From contig JALRLM010000160.1 in assembly GCA_023254435.1 (NCBI GenBank), positions 1 to 40,386 on the forward strand: a stretch of DNA of 40,386 bases, written 5' to 3'. Each line of letters opens with the position of its first letter. The first letter of the stretch is position 1. The notes under the pieces are model-generated. The model did no database searches, was not told where the DNA came from, and saw nothing but the letters and a program-made list of their open reading frames with translations. The translations under genes and the position numbers were made by a program. The DNA comes from Hydrocarboniphaga sp. (lineage in GTDB: Bacteria > Pseudomonadota > Gammaproteobacteria > Nevskiales > Nevskiaceae). This document shows, piece by piece, positions 36,702 through 39,308 of this stretch.

Positions 36702-37577
36702 TCAGGCCGGCAGTGCCTCGATGGCCTTGCGCAGCTTCTTCATTGCCGCCGCTTCGATCTGGCGGACGCGTTCGGCTGATACGCCGTACTCATCGGCCAG
36801 TTCCTGCAGGCCGGCTTTTTCGCCTTCCGACAGCCAGCGGCGCATCAGGATGCTCTTGGCGCGATCGTCGAGCTGGGCTAGGGCTTTGCGCATGGTGGTC
36901 TCGCGACGCTCGTTCCAGCCGGCGTCCTCGATCTCGGCGATGCTGCTGTCCTCGGTGGCGAGGTAGTCCTCGGGCACGTAGGTGGATTCTTCGCCTTCGT
37001 CCGGCGTGGCACTGAACGACACATCGTGGCCGCCCAGGCGCGATTCCATCTGCAGGACTTCCTCGGGCTTGACCTTGAGGTCACGTGCCACCGCCTCGAC
37101 TTCGGCCTGGTTCATCCAGCCCAGGCGCTGCTTGGCCGAGCGCAGGTTGAAGAACAGCTTGCGCTGGGCCTTGGTGGTGGCGATCTTCACGATGCGCCAG
37201 TTCTTGAGAATGAATTCGTGAATCTCGGCCTTGATCCAGTGCACGGCGAAGCTGATCAGGCGCACCCCGACATTGGGGTCAAAGCGCTTGACCGCCTTCA
37301 TCAGGCCGACGTTGCCCTCCTGGATCAGGTCGGCCAGCTGTAGCCCGTAGCCCATGTAACCGCGCGCGATGTGAACGACGAAGCGCAGGTTGGACAACAC
37401 CAGCTTCTGCGCGGCGCCCAGATCCTGCTCGTCGTGCAGGCGGTGAGCCAGCCGACTCTCGTCCTCGGGGTTGAGGACCGGAATGCGCGAGACTGACTGG
37501 ATATACGCTTCCAGGCTGCCCGACAGCGGCATCAGCATCGCGTTGTTGCGCAGGCTGAGAGCGGTGGATTGCGTCAT
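36702..37577 (-). CDS. rpoH: RNA polymerase sigma factor RpoH (sigma-32)
   Basis: NLRFVVHIARGYMGYGLQLADLIQEGNVGLMKAVKRFDPNVGVRLISFAVHWIKAEIHEFILKNWRIVKIATTKAQRKLFFNLR; start at MTQSTAL (37577). Confidence 0.97.
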   Translation of the reverse strand: MTQSTALSLRNNAMLMPLSGSLEAYIQSVSRIPVLNPEDESRLAHRLHDEQDLGAAQKLVLSNLRFVVHIARGYMGYGLQLADLIQEGNVGLMKAVKRFDPNVGVRLISFAVHWIKAEIHEFILKNWRIVKIATTKAQRKLFFNLRSAKQRLGWMNQAEVEAVARDLKVKPEEVLQMESRLGGHDVSFSATPDEGEESTYVPEDYLATEDSSIAEIEDAGWNERRETTMRKALAQLDDRAKSILMRRWLSEGEKAGLQELADEYGVSAERVRQIEAAAMKKLRKAIEALPA

Positions 37578-37605
37578 GACTCTTACTCCGATGAACGGCT
37601 GCATG

Positions 37606-37632
37606 TTAGCAGTCAGCATCATAGAGTGCTAA
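37606..37632. promoter_or_regulatory. CIRCE-like element (HrcA operator), one mismatch to TTAGCACTC-N9-GAGTGCTAA
   Basis: TTAGCAGTC-AGCATCATA-GAGTGCTAA read directly; 28 bp between the element and the rpoH ATG. Confidence 0.85.
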
Positions 37633-37874
37633 GCCGCCTCGAAGTTCGCCGTTTGCGTCGTTTCGACGTTTGAATTTATCAATCCCGATGATTGGCAAAA
37701 CCAACCGCCGGATCGCATCGCTGGCTGGATCGCCATCTCCAGCATGCTCAATGTCCCTGAATCCAGACTGGGGGCGCCGGCCGGTTGTGCAAGAGAGGGT
37801 GAATGTTCAGCAGCTTCAGGCAAGGCGGGGTGGCGGGCTTACCGTATGATGGCCGGACCTTTACAGGAGGGAGC

Positions 37875-39308
37875 ATGCGTCGTTTACGCAACGCCAAGAT
37901 TGTTGCCACCCTGGGCCCCGCGAGCCGGGAGCGGGCCACCATCGAGGCCTTGTTCCGCGCCGGGGCCGACGTGTTCCGGCTCAATTTCAGCCATGGTGCG
38001 CACGAGGACCATCGTGAGCGGGCCGAACTGATCCGCAGCATCGAGCGCGAACTGGGGCGGCCCATTGGCATCCTCATGGACCTTCAGGGCCCCAAGCTGC
38101 GTATCGGAACCTTCGCCGACGGTCCGATCACCCTGGTTCCCGACGCGCCGTTCCGCCTTGACCTGCAGAAAGAAATTCCGGGCGACGCCACCCGCGTTGC
38201 CCTGCCGCATCCCGAAATCTTCGCCGCGCTGACCGAGGGCACCGATCTGCTGCTCGACGATGGCCGCATCCGCCTGCGTGTCGAGCGTTTTTCGGCCAGC
38301 CACGCCGAAACCCGCGTGGTCACGGGCGGCAAGCTGTCGGAGCGCAAGGGTGTCAACGTGCCCGGCGTGATGCTGCCGATTTCGGCGCTCACCGAAAAGG
38401 ATCGCCGCGATCTGGCATTCGGGCTCGAACTGGGTGTCGATTGGGTGGCGCTGTCCTTCGTGCAGCGCGCCGAGGACATCGAGGAGATCAAGGCCATCGT
38501 CCAGGGGCGCGCGGGCATCGTCGCCAAGCTGGAGAAGCCGGCGGCGATCGGCCACCTCGAAGCAATCGTCGCCGCCACCGACGCGGTCATGGTGGCGCGC
38601 GGCGACCTGGGCGTGGAGCTGCCGGCCGAGCATGTGCCGTCGATCCAGAAGCGCATCGTGCGCAGTTGCCGCCGCCACGGCAAACCCGTGATCGTGGCCA
38701 CGCAGATGCTGGAGTCGATGATTTCGGCGCCCGTTCCGACACGCGCCGAGGCCTCCGACGTCGCCACCGCGATCTACGACGGTGCCGACGCGGTGATGCT
38801 GTCGGCCGAATCGGCCGCCGGCCAGTATCCGATCGAAGCCGTGCAGATGATGGAACGCATCATCACGCAGACCGAATCCGACCCGCATTACCGCGAAGTC
38901 ACCGATGCCGCGCACACGCCGCCGCAGGCCGACATCGCAGGGGCCATCGGCGAGGCAGCCTGCAATGTCGCCAGCCGGCTCAAGGCCGCCGCCGTGGTCG
39001 CCTATACGCGCTCGGGTTCGTCGGCCTTGCGCGTGTCGCGCGAGCGGCCCGAGGCGCCGATCATCGGCATGACGCCCCTGCAGGCCACCGCTCGGCGCAT
39101 GGCGCTGGTGTGGGGCGTGCATTCGGTGCTCACGCACGAGGTGGCCAGCGTCAACGAGATGACCAACTTCGCATCCTGGACGGCGGCCGAGGAGCAGTTC
39201 GCCCGTCACGGTCAGTCGGTGGTCATCGTCGCCGGACTGCCGTTCGGCGAATCCGGTTTCACCAACCTGCTGCGGGTCGCCCAGATCGGCGGCGAAACGC
39301 TGCACTGA
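37875..39308 (+). CDS. pyk: Pyruvate kinase
   Basis: MRRLRNAKIVATLGPASRE, FRLNFSHG, LMDLQGPKLRIG, KLEKPAAIGHLEAIVAATDAVMVARGDLGVE; RBS AGGAGGG. Confidence 0.97.
   Translation: MRRLRNAKIVATLGPASRERATIEALFRAGADVFRLNFSHGAHEDHRERAELIRSIERELGRPIGILMDLQGPKLRIGTFADGPITLVPDAPFRLDLQKEIPGDATRVALPHPEIFAALTEGTDLLLDDGRIRLRVERFSASHAETRVVTGGKLSERKGVNVPGVMLPISALTEKDRRDLAFGLELGVDWVALSFVQRAEDIEEIKAIVQGRAGIVAKLEKPAAIGHLEAIVAATDAVMVARGDLGVELPAEHVPSIQKRIVRSCRRHGKPVIVATQMLESMISAPVPTRAEASDVATAIYDGADAVMLSAESAAGQYPIEAVQMMERIITQTESDPHYREVTDAAHTPPQADIAGAIGEAACNVASRLKAAAVVAYTRSGSSALRVSRERPEAPIIGMTPLQATARRMALVWGVHSVLTHEVASVNEMTNFASWTAAEEQFARHGQSVVIVAGLPFGESGFTNLLRVAQIGGETLH

Follow-up and report, generated by a model that had tools for sequence, protein, structure and literature searches.

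A predicted HrcA operator upstream of rpoH in Hydrocarboniphaga sp. overlaps a predicted sigma-E promoter, an arrangement that recurs across the class

Does the inverted repeat in front of rpoH in Hydrocarboniphaga sp. place the gene for the heat-shock sigma factor under the repressor HrcA and, if it does, which promoter would the repressor close? The window (the whole stretch of DNA analysed, 40,386 nucleotides) carries rpoH on the minus strand at 36702..37577, encoding sigma-32 of 291 aa (TIGR02392, rpoH_proteo, 394 bits versus a cut-off of 323), with a ribosome-binding site GGAG at 37586..37589 on the same strand. The divergent neighbour on the plus strand is pyruvate kinase (PF00224 and PF02887), the true start of which probably lies further inside the listed open reading frame at 37803..39308. 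The best named matches to rpoH are a Nevskia soli MAG, Fontimonas thermophila, Abyssibacter and Algiphilus MAGs, and a MAG filed under "Verrucomicrobia". Fontimonas is classified in Nevskiaceae, Nevskiales; the "Verrucomicrobia" MAG is probably mislabelled, since its contig recurs in genomes of the host's order. An RNA thermosensor in the short rpoH leader was considered and rejected, the leader showing no excess folding (z 0.91).

The repeat, TTAGCAGTC-AGCATCATA-GAGTGCTAA, occupies positions 37606-37632; on the rpoH (minus) strand it reads TTAGCACTC-N9-GACTGCTAA. Relative to CIRCE, the HrcA operator (TTAGCACTC-N9-GAGTGCTAA), it departs at one base and keeps the exact 9-bp spacer, as the first-pass annotation of this DNA had it; the distance of 28 bp to the rpoH start is also right, the start ATG being 37577-37575. 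In 100 dinucleotide shuffles of the window the expected number of matches to CIRCE at three mismatches or fewer is 0, and the deviating base in TTAGCAGTC is also found in relatives. By every sequence test available the dyad is an HrcA-type operator, and HrcA binding is predicted.

The host assembly is a 4.1 Mb draft in 606 contigs, 87% complete, and it contains both things that the first-pass annotation had proposed to look for. It encodes one hrcA (PF01628, E 5.8e-40), cut by a contig end and full length in congeners, as well as one rpoH. Exactly two dyads are found at two mismatches or fewer, the rpoH site and a site upstream of groES (2 mismatches; locus L003). A third site, with 3 mismatches (contig C338), is weak, and the reversed control also yields one such match, so it was left out of the count. 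In its contig (L001, 1-1977) the gene after the host hrcA is glgX-like (glycogen debranching), in place of grpE-dnaK.

Conservation of the dyad upstream of rpoH orthologues, on which the annotation had staked its reading, is extensive both in the order and, as described below, in the class, where it takes in 98 loci from many families. CIRCE is present at two mismatches or fewer in 63 of the 85 genomes of the order, usually twice in each. Our set of rpoH upstream regions from the order comprises 80 regions out of 78 genomes, and 61 of the 80 contain CIRCE; the spacer is 9 bp long in 59 of these and 8 bp long in two. The two 8-bp sites belong to two related species (L160 and L161, in G031 and G030, respectively) and offer a natural test of the spacing that HrcA tolerates. 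Counted per genome, rpoH-associated CIRCE and hrcA occur together in 59 and are both missing in 14; hrcA is found alone in four, and CIRCE alone in a single genome, which is 79% complete. Loss of hrcA thus accompanies loss of CIRCE at rpoH. Two genomes carry an additional, diverged rpoH (L235 in G015, and G038:C28:124824-125621) that shares 55-58% identity with the window's gene; the region upstream of the G015 copy has no CIRCE.

Which promoter, then, does the operator cover? Anchoring the alignment of the order's rpoH upstream regions on the dyad brings out a second conserved block, GAACTT, which starts 15 (sometimes 16) bp before CIRCE, along with an excess of A at spacer bases 2 and 3. In the window, GAACTT lies at 37642..37647 (minus strand) and is followed after 16 bp by TCTAT at 37621..37625 (minus strand), whose first two bases, TC, are also the last two of the CIRCE left half. 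These two elements would be the -35 and -10 of a sigma-E promoter: the shared sigma-E motif is GAACTT-16/17-TCCAAA, and the rpoH promoter of Shewanella is GAACTT-N16-TCTAT (PMC4336711), identical to the window's in -35, spacing and -10. On these grounds we identify GAACTT-N16/17-TCnAA in the order as a sigma-E promoter, the use of which is predicted. In Vibrio, sigma-E has been found bound at the rpoH promoter by ChIP (PMC4890791). Such a promoter is present in 72 of the 80 rpoH upstream regions, versus a mean of 1.9 and a maximum of 7 after shuffling. Searches of the host draft (87% complete) found neither rpoE nor rseA; both are present in all three congeners, which makes an assembly gap the probable explanation. 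Further upstream of the sigma-E -35, the window shares with the closest congener a block ATTGATAAATTCAAAC (37659-37690, minus strand), possibly another promoter or an UP element.

The promoter and the operator stand in a fixed register in the host family. GAACTT, exact or with one mismatch, precedes CIRCE by 15-16 bp in 55 of 56 family sites, and at every one of the 55 sites where a promoter is detectable the sigma-E TC falls at CIRCE offset 7. Elsewhere in the order, three families (f2, f3 and f5) have CIRCE over the start site, its first base 8-15 nt beyond the TC of the sigma-E -10; two families have no CIRCE at the sigma-E promoter in those cases where the promoter is found. With the register fixed at offset 7 in one family and the operator over the start site in others, the sigma-E promoter is, as we read these alignments, the constant part, and the operator has come to occupy two positions on it, each suited to blocking.

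We extended the search to the class, sampling 369 genomes from 272 genera, drawn evenly; the class is broad and includes betaproteobacteria. The composite GAACTT-N9-CIRCE, allowing up to two mismatches, is present in 148 of the 369 genomes (113 of the 272 genera), and the reversed-pattern control gives 0. Of 110 composite sites examined, 98 immediately precede rpoH and share its strand. Conservation of GAACTT and CIRCE within these sites is partly a product of the two-mismatch selection, from which offsets 9-17 and 27-29 are free; A at offset 11, one of these free positions, is present at 88 of the 98 rpoH sites versus 5 of 18 other CIRCE sites. HrcA is encoded in 140 of the 148 composite genomes versus 128 of the 221 others (Fisher p 1.4e-16, uncorrected for relatedness and therefore overstating independence, as the genomes are related); of the eight composite genomes in which no hrcA was detected, most are incomplete. 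The combination of CIRCE and GAACTT (0-1 mismatch) in the same place before rpoH is seen, for example, in Fontimonas, Azoarcus, Thiohalobacter, Catenovulum and Pleionea, and in MAGs of Competibacteraceae and Chromatiales. Pseudoalteromonas has CIRCE at rpoH and no GAACTT at -15.

Several individual sites deserve mention. Catenovulum sp. 2E275 carries a tandem CIRCE pair upstream of rpoH (L019, 1391-1451), one member perfect with GAACTT at -15, the other with one mismatch. At L343 (G155; 101-142) a perfect GAACTT-CIRCE composite precedes a gene other than rpoH, which from its N-terminus we take to be clpB; control by HrcA and sigma-E may there have extended to a further heat-shock gene. Where the GAACTT is degraded (TAAATT, GAATTG and similar), the class composites do not precede rpoH and were set aside as chance matches beside other CIRCE sites.

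The least certain step concerns a second promoter. The CIRCE halves probably double as the -35 and the extended -10 of a sigma-70 promoter: in the window the putative -35, TTAGCA (consensus TTGACA), takes up the outer six bases of the CIRCE left half (37627..37632, minus strand), and the putative extended -10, TGCTAACAT, consists of the right half and a flanking nAT (37603..37611, minus strand). Measured against TGnTATAAT and TTGACA at 16-18 bp, the window's element (TTAGCA-N18-TAACAT, preceded by TGC) scores 4/6 and 4/6 plus the TG (8/12) and is weak. Across the class the element is stronger and conserved: at rpoH an (A/T)AT often extends the right half to TGCTAAnAT, with TT(A/G)GCA 18 bp upstream. 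The AT flank (offsets 28-29) is present at 69 of 98 rpoH sites versus none of 18 other CIRCE sites. In addition, the third base of the dyad has changed from A to G at 25 of the 98 sites, giving TTGGCA, a step towards TTGACA, whereas the symmetric base, the first T of the -10, has changed to C at only one. Such asymmetry is not expected of an operator that a dimer reads symmetrically, and from the one-sided change we therefore take it that sigma-70 polymerase recognises the half-sites as well.

The alternative that survives best, possible if clearly the less probable reading, grants a functional operator overlapping the sigma-E promoter and treats the sigma-70-like element as a by-product, with the AT flank assigned either to the HrcA footprint or to the sequence first transcribed from the sigma-E promoter. 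The CIRCE halves do resemble TTGACA and TATAAT anyway, the window's own element is weak, and the promoter scan does not list it. What a by-product leaves unexplained is that the flank is confined to the rpoH sites, groES and the other CIRCE sites lacking it altogether, and that the A-to-G change is one-sided (25 to 1), both features pointing towards the sigma-70 consensus.

Our preferred reading, to which we assign a probability of roughly 0.8, is that the dyad would serve HrcA as a CIRCE operator for the repression of rpoH and lies over a sigma-E promoter and a probable sigma-70 promoter. In other bacteria HrcA is active while GroEL is free. Since the operator overlaps both sets of elements, bound HrcA should exclude the sigma-E and sigma-70 forms of RNA polymerase together. 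The scheme that we infer, in which HrcA binds and represses, both promoters are used and GroEL provides the link to folding, would then run as follows. Misfolded cytoplasmic protein would titrate GroEL, HrcA would lose its activity and the promoters would open; with HrcA off, basal sigma-70 transcription of rpoH would resume, and under additional envelope stress sigma-E would drive rpoH strongly. Full induction would be reached only with HrcA off and sigma-E on.

HrcA might instead act mainly as a roadblock, or through an RNA-level element in the leader, with the promoters farther upstream. We regard this as unlikely: the start-site position of CIRCE in families f2, f3 and f5 would suit it, but in the host family the left half precedes the predicted start and so lies outside the sigma-E transcript, and the folding of the leader, as noted above, is not unusual. 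Slightly less probable again is that HrcA represses rpoH from a site whose only promoter is a sigma-70 one with TATGAT, inside the CIRCE spacer, as its -10. This was the proposal of the first-pass annotation, which read the minus-strand spacer as TATGATGCT and noted the hexamer in it. The hexamer is indeed there, on the rpoH strand; the promoter built on it does not stand, as the scan finds no acceptable -35 at 16-18 bp, TATGAT is not conserved in relatives, and what is conserved instead is TCnnA (88/98), mostly TCCAA in the family sites. The accompanying idea that HrcA occludes polymerase carries over in corrected form, to the predicted sigma-E promoter and the probable sigma-70 extended -10. 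That the dyad is a chance match or a relic without a regulator is highly improbable, its one half-site mismatch being offset by the recurrence of that very base among relatives, the absence of matches in shuffles, the co-occurrence with hrcA and the conservation in the order (61/80) and the class (148/369).

Parts of this arrangement have precedents. The same operator and repressor act at groESL and hrcA-grpE-dnaK, and the host has its groES site, although none of the features that accompany CIRCE at rpoH (GAACTT, the bias towards TCnnA in the spacer, the AT flank) is seen at groES sites. The E. coli rpoH promoter P3 is sigma-E-dependent, and in the P3/P4 region overlapping sigma-E and sigma-70 promoters are controlled by DnaA: likewise two overlapping promoters and one repressor, with DnaA in the place that HrcA would take here. 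Nor is rpoH as unusual a CIRCE target as the annotation supposed. Beyond being common in the class, it was already listed for Geobacter sulfurreducens, where a perfect CIRCE at -51 of rpoH led Rodionov et al. (2004, PMC545781, Table 8) to predict that HrcA controls the sigma-32 gene. That organism is a Deltaproteobacterium, the site was reported in one of the species studied, and no promoter overlap is described in the accessible part of that paper; here the arrangement is family-wide and extends across the class. The published Shewanella promoter sequence, for its part, has no CIRCE half-site (PMC4336711), whereas in the window the -10 and the predicted HrcA operator share bases. No account of CIRCE overlapping a sigma-E promoter at rpoH turned up in the accessible literature, which does not include Permina and Gelfand 2003. 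Within that scope, CIRCE at rpoH and sigma-E control of rpoH are both known already, and the conserved overlap and its class-wide spread look new.

The textbook picture of heat-shock control for this class is drawn from E. coli, an organism without HrcA (among the control genomes of our search, hrcA was absent from E. coli). Yet HrcA appears to control rpoH in a substantial fraction of the class, through an operator interlocked with a sigma-E promoter. We put at only somewhat better than even the general proposition that in hrcA-bearing members, betaproteobacteria included, the rpoH control region is a single element of ~45 bp in which the CIRCE halves double as the sigma-E -10 and the sigma-70 -35 and extended -10, HrcA gates both promoters and three heat-shock circuits are joined. 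HrcA control of rpoH predicts that lineages losing hrcA free rpoH and keep a bare sigma-E promoter, as is seen in family f6 of the order. Under such control, the folding state of the cytoplasm (through HrcA) and envelope stress (through sigma-E) would be joint inputs to sigma-32 transcription, and one protein, HrcA, could hold the heat-shock cascade shut.
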